48,168 bases of DNA from a bacterium (GTDB lineage: Bacteria > Omnitrophota > Gorgyraeia > Zapsychrales > Zapsychraceae): NCBI GenBank assembly GCA_030429765.1, contig JAUIER010000024.1, positions 1-48,168 of the forward strand. Direction: 5' to 3'. The notes beneath the pieces are model-generated. The model did no database searches, had not been told where the DNA came from, and was given only the letters and a program-made list of their open reading frames with translations. The translations under genes were made by a program, and so were the position numbers. Shown piece after piece: positions 18,712-44,972 of this stretch (positions are counted from its first letter, which is position 1; each line of letters starts with the position of its first letter).

Positions 18712-19584
18712 TTAACGCCGAACAGCGTCGAGGATTTGAGCGGTGGGCTGAACTTTGTTCAGGGTATAAAAGTGAAGGCCTGGCGCGCCGCCGTCAAGCA
18801 GCTCCCGGCATTGCTTGATACAAAAATCAATACCAGCCTTTAGCGTGGCTTCCTTGTCTTCGGCCAGCGGTTCAAATATCGTCTTGACCTCATTACTGAT
18901 AGATGCCCCGCATAGCGCGGTAAAACGGCACAATGCTTTGTAGTCTGTGATCGGAATCATCCCCGGAACCACACGGATATTGAGGCCGCGGTCGCGCAGT
19001 CGTTGTACATAATCAAAATAGTCCTGGTTATTAAAGAAGAGTTGGGTGATGACAAAGTCCGCACCGGCATCGATCTTCATCTTGAGAAAATCAGCGTCCC
19101 GGTCCCGGTCAGGGCAGAGGATATGACCTTCCGGAAATCCCGCCACGGCTACCCCAAAATCATCCTGAAATTCCTCGCGGATAAATCCGGCCAGCTCACT
19201 TGAATATTTGAAATTTTCCGCGCCGGGTGTCCAGTCCGGATTATCGGCCGGCGGATCGCCTCGTAACGCCAGGATATTCCGAATACCACGCCCGTGGACG
19301 TCTCTAAGAATGGCACGGATATCTTCGCGCGTGTTCATCACACAGGTCAAATGAGCCATGGCCACGGTTTGATGCTGTTTTTGGATGTGTTCGACAATAT
19401 CGAAGGTCTTGTCGCGGCTGCCGCCACCGGCTCCATAGGTACAGGAGATAAAATCCGGTTTGAGGTCCGTCAGCGACTGGATGGTATTCATTAAATTCGC
19501 ATGGCCCTTTTCCGTCTTGGGCGGAAAAAGTTCAAACGAATAGGTGCGTTCTTTGCGCTCAAAAATGTCTCGTATTCTTTCCAT
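18712..19584 (-). CDS. metF: 5,10-methylenetetrahydrofolate reductase
   Basis: This 290-residue FAD-binding TIM barrel reduces 5,10-methylenetetrahydrofolate to 5-methyltetrahydrofolate, the methyl donor used by MetH. Recognisable segments are SFELFPPKTEKG near the start, CTYGAGGGSRDKT, AHLTCVMNT, NILALRGDPP and ADFVITQLFFNN. The ATG at 19584 is chosen over the TTG at 19590. A minus-strand promoter lies upstream. The gene diverges from a MetH-half paralogue at 19682, placing folate-methyl formation and a B12-binding protein under one shared control region. The length is typical of bacterial MetF without the eukaryotic regulatory domain. Confidence 0.95.
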   Translation of the reverse strand: MERIRDIFERKERTYSFELFPPKTEKGHANLMNTIQSLTDLKPDFISCTYGAGGGSRDKTFDIVEHIQKQHQTVAMAHLTCVMNTREDIRAILRDVHGRGIRNILALRGDPPADNPDWTPGAENFKYSSELAGFIREEFQDDFGVAVAGFPEGHILCPDRDRDADFLKMKIDAGADFVITQLFFNNQDYFDYVQRLRDRGLNIRVVPGMIPITDYKALCRFTALCGASISNEVKTIFEPLAEDKEATLKAGIDFCIKQCRELLDGGAPGLHFYTLNKVQPTAQILDAVRR

Positions 19585-19596
19585 AGCCAATGAGTG

Positions 19597-19624
19597 TTGA
19601 TTTTGATAAGATATGGCCTAATAA
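19597..19624 (+). promoter_or_regulatory. Candidate promoter of the half-MetH gene
   Basis: On the plus strand TTGATT (19597-19602), a 16-base spacer and TAATAA (19619-19624) point towards the gene at 19682. The match is moderate. It lies next to, and opposite, the metF promoter. Confidence 0.35.
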
Positions 19625-19633
19625 TCAATACCT

Positions 19634-19661
19634 ATCATAGAATAAGAATCAGATATATCAA
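19634..19661 (-). promoter_or_regulatory. Candidate metF promoter
   Basis: On the minus strand TTGATA (19661-19656), a 16-base spacer and TATGAT (19639-19634) give a start near 19627, about 43 bases before the metF ATG. It overlaps a candidate promoter in the other direction. Confidence 0.5.
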
Positions 19662-19681
19662 GCAAAATCCCCGCCAACCGG

Positions 19682-21214
19682 ATGGACTTTGATTTAATTA
19701 TGACAGAGGCAACCAATTTTATACTCTCAGAAAAGCTTCGTGAGACCGTACCGCATCAGGGTGAGGGGCCTGGGGTGATTTTGGCCATGCCGGCCGGTGA
19801 GGTCCATGATATCGGTAAGACCGTGATTGCCGCGCTGTTTGATGCCAATCAGGTCCGTGTCGTTGACCTGGGAACGGTCGGGTCGGTGGAGGAAATAGTT
19901 GAAGCGGTCAGATCGGAGCGGCCGGATTTGATCGGGATCAGCTGTATGTTGACCTCGTCATTAGATCAACTGCAGCAGCTGGCGACCGGGCTCGAAGAAA
20001 ACGGCATGAAGATACCATTGTTGTTGGGAGGTCCCGGGATTACACCGGCGATGGTGGCGCGCTATATCGCGCCGCGTTATCCATCCGGGGCAACATTATA
20101 CGTTAAGGATGCGCAGGCGTGCCAGCGCATTTGCGATGCCCTTGGAGACTCAACCCAATTTAGCGAAATGATCGAGGCAATGGAATCGCAACATCAGAAT
20201 TTGCGCGATGCCTTTGCCCAGCAACTTCAACACAAAACATTGCTACCTATTGAGCAGGCCCGAAACCGGCGGCTGCAGATCAACTGGGAAGAATTTTCAT
20301 CACCGCGGCCCAAGGCGTTTGGCGTTCAGGTCCTTGATAATCTAGAGCTCGGTGAAATTGTCGAGTGGATCGACTGGACAACAATATTTTTGGCCTTCGG
20401 TATGAAGGGCAAATATCCGAATATTCTGAAAGACGCGCGCTTCGGCGGTGAGGCCCAAGCGGTCCTTGATGACGCTCGGGCGTTACTGCAGCGTATTCTC
20501 GATGAGAATTTACTGCAAGCCCGGGCAGTGATTGGTTTTTTTCGCGCCAACAGCGACGGGGATGACATTCGCATTATTGGGACGGACGGTCAAGAGCAAG
20601 TCCTGCATTGTCTGCGTCAGCAGGCCCTGCACTTGGATGATAAGCCGTATATTTCGTTGTCCGACTTTATCGCACCCGAAAACAGCGGGCTGACGGATAC
20701 CATCGGCGCGTTTGCCTTGTCATGCGGTTTTGGTCTCGATCAATTGGAGCAGGAATATCGGACCCAAAATGATTACTATCACCGTATTCTTGCCAAATCT
20801 CTGGCGGATTGTCTGGCAGAGGGGCTGGCGGAGGCGTTGCATCAAAAGGTCCGTACAGAGTACTGGGGATATGTGCCTCAAGAAGATTTGACATTGGAAC
20901 AAATATTTCGCTGTGAGTTTCAGGGGATTCGGCCGGCGCCCGGATATCCCGCGTGTCCGGAACACAGTGAAAAGGAATTACTGTTTCGATTGTTAGATGT
21001 AAAGAAACATATTAAAATGGATTTGACCCAAAGTTATGCGATGTGGCCGGCGGCATCGGTCTGCGGATTCTATTTCGCACACCCCCAGGCCAAGTACTAT
21101 TGGTTGGGCAGTATCGGCCGGGATCAGGTCGAGGACTATGCCCGACGGGCTAATCGCTCTGTTCAATGGGTTGAACAACAGCTGCAAATGAACTTGAATT
21201 ATATCAATAAGTGA
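19682..21214 (+). CDS. Half MetH: B12-binding plus AdoMet activation domains only
   Basis: This 510-residue protein corresponds to the C-terminal half of MetH. A B12-binding Rossmann-like domain (about 28-155) has EVHDIGK, with His42 as the likely cobalt ligand; the usual preceding Asp of DxHxxG is Glu40. It is followed by a complete activation domain (about 200-505) with [25 protein letters not shown] and ASVCGFYFAHP. The homocysteine, folate and cap domains are absent and no trace of them lies upstream, where metF diverges. The frame is intact and conserved, so it does not look like a decaying fragment. A full MetH lies at 2611. Possible roles are reactivation, B12 storage or a different methyl transfer; none is established. 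The start has no strong ribosome-binding site; an ATG at 19700 is an alternative. Confidence 0.88.
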   Translation: MDFDLIMTEATNFILSEKLRETVPHQGEGPGVILAMPAGEVHDIGKTVIAALFDANQVRVVDLGTVGSVEEIVEAVRSERPDLIGISCMLTSSLDQLQQLATGLEENGMKIPLLLGGPGITPAMVARYIAPRYPSGATLYVKDAQACQRICDALGDSTQFSEMIEAMESQHQNLRDAFAQQLQHKTLLPIEQARNRRLQINWEEFSSPRPKAFGVQVLDNLELGEIVEWIDWTTIFLAFGMKGKYPNILKDARFGGEAQAVLDDARALLQRILDENLLQARAVIGFFRANSDGDDIRIIGTDGQEQVLHCLRQQALHLDDKPYISLSDFIAPENSGLTDTIGAFALSCGFGLDQLEQEYRTQNDYYHRILAKSLADCLAEGLAEALHQKVRTEYWGYVPQEDLTLEQIFRCEFQGIRPAPGYPACPEHSEKELLFRLLDVKKHIKMDLTQSYAMWPAASVCGFYFAHPQAKYYWLGSIGRDQVEDYARRANRSVQWVEQQLQMNLNYINK

Positions 21215-21222
21215 GGTCATAA

Positions 21223-22299
21223 ATGGATATTGCCATTATTACGGGAGCCGGCGGACTCATCGGGTCCGAAGCGGTTACCTTTTTCGCGGATAAAGGGTTT
21301 AAGGTTGTCGGGATCGATAACGACATGCGCAGTTATTTCTTTGGCAAAGAGGCATCAACGGAATGGAACAATAATCGTTTGAAGTCGGAGGTGGCCGAAT
21401 ACGTCCACAAAAATATCGATATCCGCGATTTACAGGAATTGGAAAAAGTTTTTAAGGAGTATTCGACGGATATCAAAGTGATCATTCACACGGCGGCCCA
21501 ACCGTCGCATGACTGGGCAGCCAAAGAACCGTTTACGGATTTTAGTGTCAATGCCAATGGAACATTGAATCTCCTCGAGCTGACCCGCCGTCATTGTCCC
21601 CAGGCCGTGTTTGAGTTTTGCAGTACGAATAAGGTTTACGGTGATACACCCAATCGGCTTCCGCTCGTCGAGCTCGAAGAGCGTTGGGAGATCGAAGAAG
21701 GGCATCCATTTTATGTCGGCATCGATGAAAGTATGAGTATTGATCACTGCAAGCATTCACTGTTCGGCGCGTCCAAGGCAGCGGCCGACATTCTGGTTCA
21801 GGAGTATGGTCGATATTTCGATATGAAAACCGTCTGCTTTCGCGGCGGATGTCTGACCGGGCCCAACCATTCCGGCGCTCAGCTGCATGGATTTCTAGCC
21901 TACCTGATGAAGTGTTGCGCGACCGGAGACAAGTACACGGTCTTCGGGTATAAGGGTAAACAGGTCCGCGACAATATCCATAGTTACGATTTCATTAATG
22001 CGTTTTGGCATGTGTATGAAAATCCCCGGGTCGCCGAGGTCTATAACATGGGCGGCGGGCGTGACAACAGTTGTTCGGTGCTGGAGGCCATCAAGATTTG
22101 TCAGGAAATGACCGGGAACACGATGAATTTTGAGGTCAGCGACGACAACCGGATTGGAGATCACATTTGGTATATCAGTCATCTGGGCAAATTCCAGGAG
22201 CATTACCCTGGATGGAGCCAAAAATACTCGCTGCGCGAAACCATGCAGCAGATTCATGATAACAATATTGAGAAATGGTCTAACCTCAAGCAAGTCTAA
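21223..22299 (+). CDS. NAD-dependent epimerase, CDP-tyvelose 2-epimerase-like SDR
   Basis: This 358-residue extended short-chain dehydrogenase has the NAD-binding GAGGLIGS (about 8-15). Further segments, [16 protein letters not shown] and [13 protein letters not shown] with the catalytic Tyr replaced by Phe in the usual YxxxK position, and [13 protein letters not shown], follow CDP-paratose 2-epimerase (RfbE) closely. That enzyme converts CDP-paratose to CDP-tyvelose by oxidation at C2. It begins nine bases after the half-MetH gene, with GAGG in front, so the two share a transcript. No other CDP-3,6-dideoxyhexose genes are in the window, so another nucleotide sugar is equally possible. Confidence 0.8.
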
Positions 22300-22372: not shown

Positions 22373-22400
22373 TTGACAAAGCAGGACCGTTGAGTATAGT
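22373..22400 (+). promoter_or_regulatory. sigma-70-type promoter of the DUF6580 gene
   Basis: A perfect TTGACA at 22373-22378, a 16-base spacer and TATAGT at 22395-22400 lie 23 bases before the ATG at 22424, which also has a strong GGAGGAA ribosome-binding site. Confidence 0.75.
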
Positions 22401-22423: not shown

Positions 22424-22924
22424 ATGCTAGCAGTTTTACTGATTCTACTGGGAATCTCCAGCCGATTTATCTTACACATCCCTAATTTTACACCCATTCT
22501 GGCGATTGCTTTGTTTGCCGGATTTTATCTTTCCCGACGGAATGCGGTATTAGTTCCGTTGCTGATGATGATCATATGTGATGCCATTATCGGATTCCAT
22601 GCCATGGTGCCATTCACATGGGGAACGATTCTATTGGTCTCGCTCATCGGATCGGGACTTAAAGACAACAAAAGTCTGGCGACCGTCGGAGTATCTTCCA
22701 TTGGAGCGGCCGTCCTTTTTTATATCATCACCAATTTTGGGGTATGGTTGTTTTATCCGACCTATCCCAAGACACTGGCCGGATTAGGGCAGTGTTATGT
22801 CGCGGCGATTCCTTTTTTTAGAGGAACATTGTCCAGCACGTTGATCTATTCGGCGGTGCTGTTCGGGTCTTATGAATTTCTAGCCTCTCGATTACGCAAC
22901 ACTAGACTAGCCAACGCTCTTTAG
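22424..22924 (+). CDS. DUF6580-family membrane protein, ECF S-component-like
   Basis: This 166-residue protein has five or six membrane helices. It matches the DUF6580 family through PNFTPILAIALFAGFYLSRR near the start and ITNFGVWLF, YPKTLAGLGQCYVAAIPFF and VLFGSYEFLASR at the end. The family is annotated only as a putative transport protein and resembles the substrate-binding S components of energy-coupling-factor transporters. It has its own promoter and ends just before the cobalamin riboswitch that controls btuB. That suggests a link to vitamin B12 or a precursor, but the substrate is not known and no ECF energising module is in the window. Confidence 0.8.
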   Translation: MLAVLLILLGISSRFILHIPNFTPILAIALFAGFYLSRRNAVLVPLLMMIICDAIIGFHAMVPFTWGTILLVSLIGSGLKDNKSLATVGVSSIGAAVLFYIITNFGVWLFYPTYPKTLAGLGQCYVAAIPFFRGTLSSTLIYSAVLFGSYEFLASRLRNTRLANAL

Positions 22925-23092: not shown

Positions 23093-23125
23093 GGGTGCAT
23101 TCCTTGCGGGATGCACCCTTTTTTT
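23093..23125 (+). terminator. Riboswitch-controlled intrinsic terminator
   Basis: An 11-base-pair stem (GGGTGCATTCC pairing with GGGATGCACCC, with one G-T pair) and a 4-base loop are followed by seven T residues at 23119-23125, 73 bases before the btuB start. With the upstream aptamer it should stop transcription when cobalamin is abundant. Confidence 0.9.
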
Positions 23126-23198: not shown

Positions 23199-25205
23199 AT
23201 GAATCGAAAAATGAAATTAACTGTATGGATGGCGATGTTGACATTTCTACATGTTTCAGCCGCACAGGCGTATTTCACGGCAACTAATCAAAAGGTGGTG
23301 GTGACGGCCAATCGTCACGAAAAGCCCGGCCGTGAAATTGCCGGAAATGTGTCGGTCATCACCAAGGAACAGATCGAGGCCTCCAACGCGCAGACCGTTC
23401 CCGATATTCTCGAGCAGGTCGAAGGGGTGTTTATCTACAACACCAGCACCTCAAAAACCAGCAATGTGGACATCCGTGGATTTGGTGATACGGCCGGACG
23501 TAATGTTTTGGTTCTGGTCGATGGACGGCGGATCAATACGGCCGATTCCGGAACAGCCGACTTGGTCCAGGTACCGATCGGAGCCATTGACCGTATCGAA
23601 ATCATACGGGGAGCGGCCAGCGTTTTGTATGGTGACAACGCTGTAGGGGGTGTCATCAACATCATCACCAAGAAAGGGCAAGGGGAGCTTTCCGGACGGG
23701 TTGGTTATTTTGGGGGAAGTTATGGTTCGACCGGGGGAGACATCGAAGTCTCGGGAAGCGAAAAGGGACTGTCCTATTATCTTACAGCCAAGTATTTTGA
23801 AAAAGGCGGATACCGGACGAACGCGGATGAGTTCTATAAAAATTACAGCGGACGTCTGGATTATGACGTGAACGACAATATCTCGGTGGGATTGCAATAT
23901 GGATTTCACGAAGATCGATATGATTTGCCCGGGGGATTGAACGCGACTGAGCTGCAAAATCTGGGACGCAGGGGATCGGCGGATTCCGGAGATGTGGCTG
24001 ACACGGAAGATCAGTACGCCAGGCTCACCTTGGACATCGATCCGATTCCCGGGGACACGGAGTACGGCTATTTTCAAATTGACTACACCTGGCGAGAGCG
24101 CGAACTATTTGATCGGCTGAATGCCTTTAATTTTGTGACGAATCGATCCACGGATACCGAAGGCGCATCGATCAAGTATATATTTGACCGTGAAGTGTAT
24201 GATCGAAATATTGATTTTGTCTTCGGGGCCGAAAAGTATCGGCACGCGACCGCCATCGTCGGTAGCGGAACAAATACGGATGATCTGATTATCTCCAAGG
24301 ATGAGTACGGTTTCTTTGGAAATATGGAAGTGGAAATGCTGAGCAACCTTTTCTTTGTCGGAGGCGCGCGCTATCACAAGGCGGAGTTTACATTTGATCA
24401 GCGCAGCGGTACGCCAAACTTTGAGAAACAGAAGCCCGATGAAACCGTATCATCGGCCGGATTGAAATATGAGTATGCCCCGGGCAGCAATGTGTTTTTC
24501 AATTTTCAGCAGACCTTCCGCTTCCTGACGCCCAATGAATGGTATAGCTCATTCAGTGGTCTAAACACCAACCTCCGTCAACAGCGGGGAGAACAATACG
24601 AACTGGGTATCAAGCATAATGTCAATGACCGGGCCATCGTCAGCATTACTCCTTACATCATGGAGACGGAGGATGAAATATTCTTTGATCCATCGGTCGG
24701 ATTTTTTGGTTCCAATAGCAACTATGACAAGATTCGACGGGTGGGTGTGGAGTTTGGAAGTCGATTTGATTTGAAAGGGTTGATGAATGACATTGAATTC
24801 ATCGACAAGTTTGAATATTTTGCCAACTATACGTTTCAGAATCCGGAATTTACCGATGGAGCCAATGACGGAAAGAAGGTTCCGTTTGTTCCTCAACATC
24901 AGGTCAATACCGGGATTGTCATGACATTCAAAAAGCATTTCAATCTGACCCTCGTCGGACGCTACGTGGGGAGCCGGTATGCTATCAACGATACGGACAA
25001 TAGTTTGCCGCCGGCCAAGTCCTACTTTGTGACGGATCTAAAGCTGTCTTATGTTCGCAAGTATTTCGAAATGTTCTTGTCGATCAATAACATCTTTGAT
25101 AAACGTTATAGTACGTACGAAGCCACTAACAGCTCTAAAACGGTAAGAGACATTTTTCCCGCGGCGGGGCGCAATTATTTAGGTGGCGTATCATTCAAGT
25201 TTTAG
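23199..25205 (+). CDS. btuB: TonB-dependent cobalamin receptor
   Basis: This 668-residue outer-membrane receptor has a signal peptide (about 1-24), a TonB-box-like KVVVTANRHE, a plug domain (about 40-160, with VDIRGFGDTAGRNVLVLVDGRR and SVLYGDNAVGGVINIIT), and a 22-strand barrel ending in the Bam signature Phe (GGVSFKF). It carries corrinoids across the outer membrane using TonB energy. The cobalamin riboswitch in its leader makes the B12 assignment much stronger than homology alone would. It heads an operon with the three genes that follow. The extracellular lipoprotein BtuG found in Bacteroidota is absent, as are btuC and btuD in this window. Confidence 0.93.
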   Translation: MNRKMKLTVWMAMLTFLHVSAAQAYFTATNQKVVVTANRHEKPGREIAGNVSVITKEQIEASNAQTVPDILEQVEGVFIYNTSTSKTSNVDIRGFGDTAGRNVLVLVDGRRINTADSGTADLVQVPIGAIDRIEIIRGAASVLYGDNAVGGVINIITKKGQGELSGRVGYFGGSYGSTGGDIEVSGSEKGLSYYLTAKYFEKGGYRTNADEFYKNYSGRLDYDVNDNISVGLQYGFHEDRYDLPGGLNATELQNLGRRGSADSGDVADTEDQYARLTLDIDPIPGDTEYGYFQIDYTWRERELFDRLNAFNFVTNRSTDTEGASIKYIFDREVYDRNIDFVFGAEKYRHATAIVGSGTNTDDLIISKDEYGFFGNMEVEMLSNLFFVGGARYHKAEFTFDQRSGTPNFEKQKPDETVSSAGLKYEYAPGSNVFFNFQQTFRFLTPNEWYSSFSGLNTNLRQQRGEQYELGIKHNVNDRAIVSITPYIMETEDEIFFDPSVGFFGSNSNYDKIRRVGVEFGSRFDLKGLMNDIEFIDKFEYFANYTFQNPEFTDGANDGKKVPFVPQHQVNTGIVMTFKKHFNLTLVGRYVGSRYAINDTDNSLPPAKSYFVTDLKLSYVRKYFEMFLSINNIFDKRYSTYEATNSSKTVRDIFPAAGRNYLGGVSFKF

Positions 25206-25220
25206 CGGGAGGGAATTGTT

Positions 25221-25376
25221 GTGAGTCCAGTTCTTGAGCCGGGTATTGATTATTACATTAACGAGGAAGGAAAATACGTCTTCACGCGGGAATATCATCT
25301 AAAGCGGGGGCATTGCTGTGAGAGCGGCTGTCAGCATTGTCCGTATGGGTTTGATAAAACCGAGTCTCAAGTATGA
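25221..25376 (+). CDS. DUF5522 small cysteine-rich protein
   Basis: This 51-residue protein starts at GTG, with GGGAGGG at 25207-25213 as ribosome-binding site. It reads DYYINEEGKYVFTREYHLKR followed by GHCCESGCQHCPYGF, the hallmark of the DUF5522 family (usually YHLxRGxCCGSGCRHCPYG). The cluster of five cysteines suggests a metal or Fe-S site, but no function is known. Its stop overlaps the next ATG (ATGA at 25373-25376), so it is translated with the PP-loop gene and belongs to the riboswitch-controlled operon. It is easily missed because of its length and GTG start. Confidence 0.85.
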   Translation: MSPVLEPGIDYYINEEGKYVFTREYHLKRGHCCESGCQHCPYGFDKTESQV

Positions 25377-26089
25377 TTCCCGCGCTCTTTAACTGGAGTG
25401 GCGGTAAAGATTCTTCGTTGGCCCTTTATCGAATTCTGACCGAGAAGAAATATCAGGTCACGACGCTGTTGACGACGGTCAGTCAGGAGCATCAGCGCAT
25501 TTCCATGCACGGGGTCCGTGTGGATCTTCTCAAAAAACAAGCCCAGGCCATTGGACTTCCGTTGGAGATCATGGAATTTCCGGACATGCCGTCGATGGAG
25601 GTGTATAACCGGTTGATGTCCGAGACGTTGACCCGTCTAAGAAAAGGCGGTGTCGATCATTCGATCTTTGGTGACATCTTCCTGGAGGATCTTCGTCAGT
25701 ACCGGGATGAGCAATTGGCGAAGATCGGTATGACAGGTGTCTATCCCTTATGGAAGCAGGACACAACCCGCCTGGTTCACGAGTTTATTGACGCGGGGTT
25801 TAAGGCGATTGTATGTTGCGTGAACGACAAGCATCTGGATGAGACGTTTGTCGGCCGGATCATCGACCGTTCATTTGTTCGTGATTTGCCCGCCAATGTG
25901 GATCCCTGCGGAGAAGGCGGCGAATTTCATTCGTTTGTGTATGACGGGCCGATTTTCCAGATGCCGGTTGATGTTCATCCCGGTGAAAAAGTGCACCGCA
26001 CCTACACGGCCAAATGCAATCACACCTATGACGATGACCAGGAAGTTCAGCCCGTGGACAATGGATTCTGGTATATTGATTTGATATGA
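25373..26089 (+). CDS. Dph6-like PP-loop ATPase (diphthine-ammonia ligase family)
   Basis: This 238-residue protein has the PP-loop SGGKDS at residues 9-14, which binds ATP for adenylation. It continues with family segments FGDIFLEDLRQYR, PLWKQDT and NVDPCGEGGEFHSFV. Eukaryotic and archaeal relatives amidate diphthine on elongation factor 2; bacteria have no diphthamide, so bacterial members must do something else. Here it is flanked by ATGA overlaps on both sides, between DUF5522 and a BtuF-like gene, in a cobalamin-regulated operon. That context suggests a corrinoid-related amidation or ligation, or corrinoid salvage. This is inference only. Confidence 0.88.
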   Translation: MIPALFNWSGGKDSSLALYRILTEKKYQVTTLLTTVSQEHQRISMHGVRVDLLKKQAQAIGLPLEIMEFPDMPSMEVYNRLMSETLTRLRKGGVDHSIFGDIFLEDLRQYRDEQLAKIGMTGVYPLWKQDTTRLVHEFIDAGFKAIVCCVNDKHLDETFVGRIIDRSFVRDLPANVDPCGEGGEFHSFVYDGPIFQMPVDVHPGEKVHRTYTAKCNHTYDDDQEVQPVDNGFWYIDLI

Positions 26090-27006
26090 AAATTGTTTCA
26101 TTACTAGCGAGCTGTACGGAAATTGTGTGCGCCCTGGGTCAGGAATCCAGCCTGGTCGGCCGATCCCATGAATGTGATTATCCCGCCAGCGTCGAGAAGC
26201 TGCCGGCCTGCAGCGAGCCGAAGATCGATGTTGCTGCGCGCGGCGGTGAGATTGATCGGCAGGTCAAGGCGGTTGTCGCGGAGTCCTTATCAGTTTATCG
26301 GGTTGACGCGGATCGACTAAAGACCTTAAAGCCGGACGTGATCTGTACGCAGGATCAATGCGAAGTCTGCGCGGTGAGTTTGAAGGATGTTAAGCAGGCT
26401 GTGTGTGACTGGACTGGTCTGGCGCCCAAGATTGTTTCGTTAAAGCCGGAGCGCCTGAAAGACGTATGGGACAATATTCGAGAAGTCGCTGAGGCATTGA
26501 ATGTTCCGGAACGAGGAGAGCAGTTGGTCGACAGTTATCTGGAGCGAATCGATGCAATTGTTTCAAAAATTTCCCAGGACATCACACCCAAGCGGGTCGC
26601 TTGTATAGAATGGTTTGATCCGGTGATGGTGGCCGGCAACTGGGTGCCGGAACTGGTGGAAAGTCTTGGCGCCGTCAACATCGGAGCGGAGGCTGGAAAG
26701 CACTCTCCGTGGATCAAATTAGAAGATATCGCCGCTCATGATCCCGATGTCATTGTCACCATGCCGTGCGGATGGGGGATTGAACGAAGCCGGCAGGAGA
26801 TCGGTGACTTGACCGGGCACCACGTCTGGTCTGAATTGCGGGCGGTTCGTGAGGGGCGGGTCTTTATCACCGATGGCAATCAGTATTTCAACCGGCCCGG
26901 TCCGCGGCTGGTCGAATCCCTGGAAATCCTGGCCGAAATTTTGTATCCGAGTGACTTTGATTTTGGTCATCGGTCAACGGCTTGGGAGCCGTGGAAAATA
27001 CCTTGA
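26086..27006 (+). CDS. BtuF-like cobalamin-binding protein without signal peptide
   Basis: This 306-residue protein has the class III periplasmic-binding fold of BtuF: MKIVSLLASCTEIVCALG at the N-terminus, LKPDVICTQDQCEVCAVS, a long linking helix, and a C-terminal lobe with WIKLEDIAAHDPDVIVTMPCGWG. The N-terminal residues form the first beta strand, so there is no signal peptide or lipobox, and it should be cytoplasmic unless the true start is elsewhere. Its ATG overlaps the PP-loop stop (ATGA), which argues against a longer start. It is the last gene of the btuB operon. No BtuC or BtuD is present, so it may bind corrinoid inside the cell rather than feed an ABC importer. Confidence 0.85.
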   Translation: MKIVSLLASCTEIVCALGQESSLVGRSHECDYPASVEKLPACSEPKIDVAARGGEIDRQVKAVVAESLSVYRVDADRLKTLKPDVICTQDQCEVCAVSLKDVKQAVCDWTGLAPKIVSLKPERLKDVWDNIREVAEALNVPERGEQLVDSYLERIDAIVSKISQDITPKRVACIEWFDPVMVAGNWVPELVESLGAVNIGAEAGKHSPWIKLEDIAAHDPDVIVTMPCGWGIERSRQEIGDLTGHHVWSELRAVREGRVFITDGNQYFNRPGPRLVESLEILAEILYPSDFDFGHRSTAWEPWKIP

Positions 27007-43142: not shown

Positions 43143-44972
43143 ATGCCAGTACAAACCTTAGAAGCGCCAAAACGGGATACGTCGGTTAAGCGACGATATG
43201 ACATCTCGAATTTATGGATCACTCTGCCGCAGCGGGATACGCCGGGTACATTTCCGCCGTACGGCATTATGTCGGTCATGACGTATCTGAAGAAATTCGG
43301 ATACAATAATATGGAATTGTATAACATGGATTTGGACCGGCCGACACGGCAGGAGGCCATTGACCGAATCGCGTTGTCGAACCCGGAGATATTGTTGATC
43401 AGCGCGCCGGCATCGACCTGCTATGAAAATGCCAAGTACTACGCGGCAGAAGTCCGCAAACGATTGCCGAATGTCTACATCATTCTGGGCGGGGCGTTGG
43501 CGGCCAGCGCGGAGATTATCTGTAAGATGACTGAAGTGGATATGTGTATCCTGGGTGAGGGGGAATACGCCTGTTTGGAAGTTTTTGATCAATTGGCGGA
43601 AGATTTTGGCAACAGAAATTTTCGACACATCAAAGGACTGGGTTATCTGAACAGTGCCGGTACGTTCATCAACACCGGTTATCCCGACCAGATGCCGAAA
43701 GATGAGATGTATGAGGTCGATTGGGAATTGTTGGGCGAAAAAGGTATCAAACATTGTATGCCCAATTTTTCTGAGTTCGCCAACAACTCGTATGCGTATA
43801 AATATTGGTTTCCCGAAGGACTTGAGGACGCCGATCCGAAGATTCTGAACTCTAATGTGGGAACGCTTTCGTTGTCTAAAGGATGTGTGGCCCGCTGTAC
43901 GTTCTGTCACCGCTTTATCAAGGGTATACGATTTATTCCGCCGGAAATATGTGTGGAACGGATCAAAGAGTTAAGGGACAAATATAATTGCGGCGTATTC
44001 TCATTCGGAGATGAGTGTTTCGGTGCCGATCAAAAATGGCTCAAGGAATTTTGCCGGCAAATCAAACCGTTGAATGTCCGCTGGACGGCCGCCGGGATGC
44101 GTGTGCAGAACATGTCGCCTGAGATCATCGCGATGATGAAGGACGCGGGGTGCGGCTCGATCGTTTACGGGATGGAAACCGGCAGTGACCGGATCCTGCA
44201 GATCATGGAAAAACGGGCGAGTTTACAGGACAATGTCAACGCGTTTAAGTGGACGCTCGATGCCGGCCTGTATACCATTCCTCAGTTGATCCTTGGAATG
44301 CCGGGAGAAAATCGCGAAACGATCGAAGAGTCAGCTGAGTTTATTTCACACTTTCTCACGCTCCACAAGGATCAAAATCCGATGGAACTGAGTATCAACT
44401 TTGCGCAGGCGCTGCCCGGTACGCCGCTGTATGAATACGCCCGGCACAAAGGCTTGATCGGACCGACGATGGAAGAGGAGGAGGAATATCTACTGCTCGT
44501 GTCCGACCGTAATGCCAGTGACGCCGAGACCACGCTGGACTTGACCGGTTATCCGCGTCTGATCTTATTGTCGTGGAGAGATCTGGTTCGGATTACAACC
44601 TGCCATCGGTATGTTGAAAAATTCGGTTATGATCATTACCTGAAGCATGTGCTGGGTGAAGACAAGAAACCGAGTTTCTGGAAACTTTTATTCGGTATCA
44701 AATTCAACCGGATGGTATTTGTCTATCCGAAGTTTGTGTACAAGACGCGCGGATTACTTTGGTTTTATTCGTTTGTCGATATTCTTGTCCGGCGACGGCA
44801 ACCCAAGCGGGCCTTCAGTCAGCTGTGGGAGGTTATCCGGTTTTACGCCAAAGGCGGCCCAAAGAGTATTGAGCAGATTGAAACAAAATCTTTGCGACGA
44901 ATCGTCGAGAAAGACATGGGCGGGCCGTATAAGTCTTCGCCCGAAATGGTGGAACTAAGAAAAGGCCGTTAA
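43143..44972 (+). CDS. B12-binding-domain radical SAM enzyme
   Basis: This 609-residue protein has an N-terminal cobalamin-binding Rossmann domain (about 25-165, with GTFPPYGIMSVMTYLKKFGY and IILGGALAASAEIICKM; no DxHxxG histidine, so base-off/His-off binding). A radical SAM barrel follows, with the cluster cysteines Cys248, Cys252 and Cys255 in CVARCTFC. The C-terminal about 120 residues are basic and aromatic. Members methylate unreactive carbons or rearrange substrates (BchE/class B methyltransferase group). GGAGG supports the start. A 117-base gap precedes it, so it may have its own promoter. In a sugar operon it could C-methylate or deoxygenate the sugar; this is inferred. Confidence 0.88.
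   Translation: MPVQTLEAPKRDTSVKRRYDISNLWITLPQRDTPGTFPPYGIMSVMTYLKKFGYNNMELYNMDLDRPTRQEAIDRIALSNPEILLISAPASTCYENAKYYAAEVRKRLPNVYIILGGALAASAEIICKMTEVDMCILGEGEYACLEVFDQLAEDFGNRNFRHIKGLGYLNSAGTFINTGYPDQMPKDEMYEVDWELLGEKGIKHCMPNFSEFANNSYAYKYWFPEGLEDADPKILNSNVGTLSLSKGCVARCTFCHRFIKGIRFIPPEICVERIKELRDKYNCGVFSFGDECFGADQKWLKEFCRQIKPLNVRWTAAGMRVQNMSPEIIAMMKDAGCGSIVYGMETGSDRILQIMEKRASLQDNVNAFKWTLDAGLYTIPQLILGMPGENRETIEESAEFISHFLTLHKDQNPMELSINFAQALPGTPLYEYARHKGLIGPTMEEEEEYLLLVSDRNASDAETTLDLTGYPRLILLSWRDLVRITTCHRYVEKFGYDHYLKHVLGEDKKPSFWKLLFGIKFNRMVFVYPKFVYKTRGLLWFYSFVDILVRRRQPKRAFSQLWEVIRFYAKGGPKSIEQIETKSLRRIVEKDMGGPYKSSPEMVELRKGR

Follow-up and report, generated by a model that had tools for sequence, protein, structure and literature searches.

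A cap-less MetH paralogue with a remodelled B12 pocket, encoded between metF and a cobalamin-uptake locus

The window, that is, the whole stretch of 48,168 nucleotides analysed here, encodes an intact free-standing protein consisting only of the B12-binding and activation domains of MetH (half-MetH), in addition to an intact full-length MetH on the same contig (Table 1). On the best reading, half-MetH is a genus-specific functional MetH paralogue without the homocysteine, folate and cap domains; it descends from the reactivation module of MetH, and its sequence is clearly constrained, though it has changed faster than that of MetH. Its role is probably to charge or handle B12, not to carry out methionine synthesis itself, and the proposal that it binds cobalamin and uses AdoMet to methylate it on behalf of full MetH is given a probability of about 0.4.

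Table 1. Features of the half-MetH locus and of the full-length MetH gene (positions in the window).
Feature	Coordinates	Strand	Basis or remark
Full MetH, 1242 aa	2575..6303	+	Pfam; only homocysteine methyltransferase found in genome
metF (MTHFR)	18712..19584	-	Divergent neighbour, family-conserved at locus
Divergent metF/half-MetH intergenic region, 97 bases	19585..19681	.	No Rfam element
Half-MetH, cap-less (B12-binding and activation domains, 510 aa)	19682..21214	+	Open frame, Pfam, orthologue, AlphaFold
B12-binding domain with remodelled pocket	19775..20062	+	Residue alignment, near-invariant count
Activation (AdoMet-binding) domain	20348..21151	+	Pfam; D946, E1097, R1134xxxGY1139 and Y1189 equivalents all kept
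NAD-dependent epimerase/dehydratase	21223..22299	+	8 bases past half-MetH; adjoins metF in relatives without half-MetH
DUF6580 (PF20221) membrane protein	22424..22924	+	Conserved just upstream of cobalamin riboswitch
Cobalamin riboswitch RF00174, 50.9 bits	22905..23046	+	Rfam
TonB-dependent receptor, BtuB-like, below BtuB model cut-off	23199..25205	+	Profile search
Periplasmic-binding-protein (BtuF-like)	26086..27006	+	Profile search

The half-MetH frame is open across all 510 codons, and Pfam assigns to it only a B12-binding domain (PF02310; residues 32-127, 5.3e-19, 68.7 bits) and a Met_synt_B12 domain (PF02965; residues 223-490, 5e-108), with no homocysteine, folate or cap domain detected. 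Because the cap helical bundle is also gone, the protein does not even amount to a complete C-terminal half of MetH. Full MetH, to whose C-terminal part it is 41% identical, carries S-methyl_trans, Pterin_bind and B12-binding_2 domains besides its own B12-binding and activation domains, and these two proteins hold the only activation domains in the genome (3.3 Mb, 95% complete). The first-pass annotation had described this pair of proteins, the divergent metF across 97 bases and the sugar epimerase that follows, and all of these were confirmed. The start of half-MetH could be the ATG at 19700 rather than 19682, since residues 1-12 of the structure model are of low confidence and the N-termini of the two known orthologues align poorly, while metF has a conserved ATG at 19584, as in the orthologous locus.

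By family models, half-MetH falls well short of MetH (NCBIfam scores of 516 of the 1497 and 393 of the 1011 bits required) and lacks the catalytic-triad Asp of the MetH DxHxxG motif. It has the fold, the lower-ligand His and the tail-binding Ser/Gly of the cobalamin-binding Rossmann domain (PF02310), as well as the fold and AdoMet-site residues of the MetH activation-domain superfamily (PF02965). In E. coli numbering, the first pocket loop reads G39-E40-V41-H42, so that, as first annotated, His759 is kept as His42 and Asp757 is replaced by Glu40. The second loop, S87-C88-M89-L90-T91-S92-S93, carries G805C, L806M, I807L and P809S but keeps S804, T808 and S810, and the third, G116-G117-P118-G119, carries A835P and T836G but keeps G833 and G834. 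The AdoMet-site residues D946, E1097, RxxxGY and Y1189 are likewise retained. Both half-MetH orthologues read GEVHDIGK around the ligand His, with Glu at the position where Asp stands in 46 of 46 MetH proteins compared, and no report of D757E was found in a literature search. The D-to-E change singled out in the first-pass annotation is thus present and fixed, but it is just one among about 21 coordinated changes in the B12-binding domain. Across 93 near-invariant positions, defined from 47 MetH C-terminal sequences, 60 are kept by both halves and 25 have been substituted in each of them, with the same new residue in the two species at 17; control pairs of divergent MetHs have 0-3 such shared changes. 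The changed positions are concentrated in the B12-binding domain (21/47, versus 4/45 in the activation domain; Fisher p 1e-4), and many cluster in loops 753-757, 803-809 and 835-837, which contain or adjoin the ligand His and the tail-binding residues.

The nucleotide tail of cobalamin is held in human MTR by Ser830 and Gly860, and in the His-off state of that enzyme Leu832 fills the lower axial position (PMC13376404). By alignment offset these correspond to E. coli S804, G834 and L806, so that in half-MetH both tail-holding residues are retained and the Leu is replaced by Met, adjacent to the new Cys at 805. Cobalamin binding is likely on the basis of these retained residues, while coordination of the cobalt by the new Met or Cys is speculation.

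AlphaFold modelled half-MetH with good confidence (pLDDT 88.7, pTM 0.86), as well as its orthologue in a congener (pLDDT 87.2, pTM 0.82). The half-MetH model matches the C-half of E. coli MetH in the reactivation conformation with TM 0.90-0.91, and the two orthologue models together match MetH C-halves in that conformation with TM 0.89-0.93; because AlphaFold has learned the known conformation, this match says little on whether the state is fixed. Compared with the MetH C-half (PDB 3iva, 3bul and 1k7y; human 9ssq), half-MetH shares the order of Cob and Act domains, about 40% identity, this predicted packing, the His ligand and the AdoMet motif, but it is a natural stand-alone gene with no Cap and no Hcy/Fol, and with the seven pocket substitutions listed above fixed. 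Excised MetH C-halves were reported to load cobalamin in the reactivation state (PMC10567725). Since half-MetH has no cap, the resting Cap-on state is impossible, and the protein presumably stays Act-on and works like the MetH reactivation module.

A mechanism can be proposed on this basis. Loss of the homocysteine, folate and cap domains would hold half-MetH in the reactivation (Act-on, Cap-off) geometry, where it would bind base-off cobalamin via the retained His ligand and tail-binding residues, and would also bind AdoMet. It would then most likely reductively methylate, or keep ready, newly imported or oxidised cobalamin, and might hand it to full MetH, although such delivery is a guess. 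If true, this would be a natural, selected protein made of the MetH reactivation machinery only, with its lower-ligand pocket rebuilt; it would let reductive methylation be studied apart from catalysis, and it raises the question of whether proteins for charging or delivering cobalamin exist in bacteria.

Selection on half-MetH can be judged from the only other genome of the genus examined (G001, loci L004/L039), which encodes a 507-aa orthologue with 53-54% identity at the same place, between divergent metF and the epimerase. Between the two species, synonymous sites are saturated (pS 0.83, pN 0.32) and there are no stops, whereas a neutral simulation at half that divergence accumulated about 12 stops and no run was stop-free. 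In the first-pass annotation, relaxed selection or absence from all relatives was taken to point to a recent partial duplication; instead, the gene is present and constrained beside metF in the congener, though absent from the other genera searched. Recent partial duplication or a pseudogene is ruled out by orthologue, constraint and synteny. A slowly decaying duplicate without a selected function would accommodate the confinement to one genus and the rate, which is about three times that of the MetH C-terminus (path 1.40 vs 0.47; identity over the same region 55% vs 74%), and a MetH fragment of similar extent in a MetE-containing genome (G037) does look like a relic. This explanation is nevertheless very improbable, given the saturated synonymous sites with no stops, the kept key residues and the identical new residues in two species.

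The fragment in G037 (L042:8430-9947, contig C11) is a free-standing 505-aa MetH C-terminal piece with canonical Asp and an intact frame; it lies inside the contig, near metF, DUF6580, TonB receptor and BtuF-like genes. It was rejected as a relative of half-MetH because it groups within MetH and has the canonical Asp, and as its genome has MetE and no homocysteine domain, it represents an independent truncation, showing how such halves can arise where MetE is present. Other half-size frames (such as those of G040, G377, G168, G389 and G159) are fragments or full MetHs that have been cut off, located at the end of a contig or on a short one.

The distribution of half-MetH is narrow, with two species as the only carriers in the collections searched. 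The search of the order (81 genomes in total) gave no orthologue beyond these two species, and none turned up in samples of the class and the phylum (384 genomes each) or in viral contigs; matches in a plasmid search were below 60% identity and annotated metH or unannotated among the matches listed, while a scan of named genomes gave two ordinary MetH loci only. That scan was the one look outside the phylum, so the architecture of B12-binding plus activation domains may be commoner than seen here. Family members at L049 and L061 have metF adjacent to the epimerase, DUF6580, the cobalamin riboswitch and the TonB receptor, without half-MetH between them, and L047, L048 and L053 have a similar arrangement with extra or missing genes. 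With relatives lacking the gene at the same locus, it was either gained in the genus or lost elsewhere. A tree places the half-MetHs within the family, weakly (86/50), and an in-genus duplication is not rejected by topology test (AU p 0.505).

The neighbourhood gives weight to a role in B12 handling, since half-MetH lies near riboswitch-linked TonB receptor and BtuF-like genes. It also fits a sensor or buffer that reports B12/AdoMet status to methionine or B12 metabolism via protein contacts and without catalysis; such a protein could well be divergent from metF and beside B12-uptake genes, with a remodelled lower-ligand region and conserved ligand-binding residues. Structural neighbours of half-MetH include B12-binding photoreceptor and CarH domains, as is true of any B12 fold. 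However, Pfam finds no DNA-binding or output domain in half-MetH, and retention of all the AdoMet-site residues checked suggests that chemistry is retained, making a sensor rather unlikely.

Other partners in the genome are few. Profile searches of the genome found no MetE or core-MetE (PF01717), no Hcy domain (PF02574) outside full MetH, no pterin-binding domain (PF00809) outside MetH and one 299-aa frame that looks like folP, and no RamA-type activase (PF14574). The genome relies on MetH as its only methionine synthase, and the conceivable partners of half-MetH are AdoMet, MetH and B12-radical-SAM proteins. As in the split methionine synthases (MtgC-MtgD-MtgE of Phaeobacter/Ruegeria; the two-gene MetH of Pollutibacter, L033), MetH functions are here divided among genes, but the pieces of those systems jointly make up a methionine synthase, whereas the missing Hcy, Fol and cap modules are not found in other genes here and a full MetH is already present; half-MetH is therefore not part of a split MetH. 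The cobalamin subunit of the split system has cap and B12 domains and no activation domain (PMC5764234). Half-MetH might still act as an auxiliary cobalamin module, a second methyl carrier whose partners in trans would be the Hcy/Fol half of full MetH or B12-radical-SAM enzymes, given that, in split systems, the Hcy/Fol modules of MetH are able to use cobalamin modules that are not part of the same protein (PMC5764234, PMC12478193) and that the genome has nine further B12-binding frames (about 445-620 aa), of which the one examined is a B12-radical-SAM protein. This is quite unlikely, as there is no separate Hcy or pterin methyltransferase partner and many MetH-invariant positions of the B12 domain are changed, including some that may point towards the Hcy/Fol barrels. 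Among the roles first suggested, reactivating or supplying cobalamin and sensing B12/AdoMet still stand, while a methyl carrier for another acceptor has lost ground, since searches of the genome yielded no separate methyltransferase partner.

The two domains have not diverged equally, the activation domain being 62% and the B12 domain 50% identical between orthologues. This would suit a trans-acting reactivator in which the activation domain alone matters and re-methylates MetH-bound cobalamin, the B12 domain being a docking remnant. TM0269 of T. maritima has no B12 domain and serves a MetH without an activation domain. Free-standing activation domains of this type (PDB 1j6r; noted in PMC5764234) likewise place the activation-domain function outside MetH, but the structural match to half-MetH is weak (TM 0.28-0.29), half-MetH keeps a B12 domain and so is not such a lone activation domain, and the MetH of this genome has an activation domain of its own. 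Moreover, the retained ligand His and tail residues and the 17 identical changes in both species suggest a maintained B12 domain, and a reactivator of this kind is decidedly unlikely.

For the charging reading speak the orthologue, the constraint, the kept AdoMet and tail residues, the TM matches, the B12-uptake locus and the dependence on MetH. Against it, no need for help is evident, as the activation domain of full MetH is intact; the half-MetH gene itself is not behind a riboswitch, nearby families do without the gene, and a dedicated chaperone for cobalamin loading is described as unnecessary for bacterial MetH (PMC13376404). In its most detailed form, half-MetH would be a MetH-derived B12 charging or loading protein, a cap-less Cob:Act unit locked in the reactivation state, in which the new soft residues Cys805 and Met806, together with Glu757, would allow cobalamin to be bound, methylated and released to MetH. 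Such a protein would be a convergent bacterial equivalent of the loading step involving MMADHC; this combination as a whole is doubtful. The likeness to MMADHC/MMACHC of animals lies in a proposed analogous role, preparing and loading cobalamin for methionine synthase, and the searches run gave no sequence or domain relationship to half-MetH.

Several observations concern the neighbouring genes. The DUF6580 gene shares its 3' end with part of the cobalamin riboswitch. In this genome and about nine relatives, which belong to more than one family, the gene is directly upstream of riboswitch and TonB receptor; DUF6580 is a candidate B12-uptake membrane protein. A good promoter match precedes it at 22373-22400, in a scan that was near chance overall. 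Between riboswitch and TonB receptor, a strong terminator-like hairpin (23093-23118; 11 pairs, 7 G-C, T-run) is likely the riboswitch expression platform. The BtuF-like protein begins MKIVSLLASCTEIV, with no obvious signal peptide by eye, and may be a cytosolic cobalamin-binding protein; its homologue in G037 begins alike and directly follows the MetH fragment there. The TonB receptor gene is separated from the BtuF-like one by a Diphthamide-synthase-like (Dph6) ATP pyrophosphatase (25373-26089). A bacterium should need no diphthamide; this protein perhaps carries out a B12 or nucleotide salvage step. Further downstream, the B12-binding radical SAM protein mentioned above (43143-44972) is BchE/HpnJ-like, below cut-offs.
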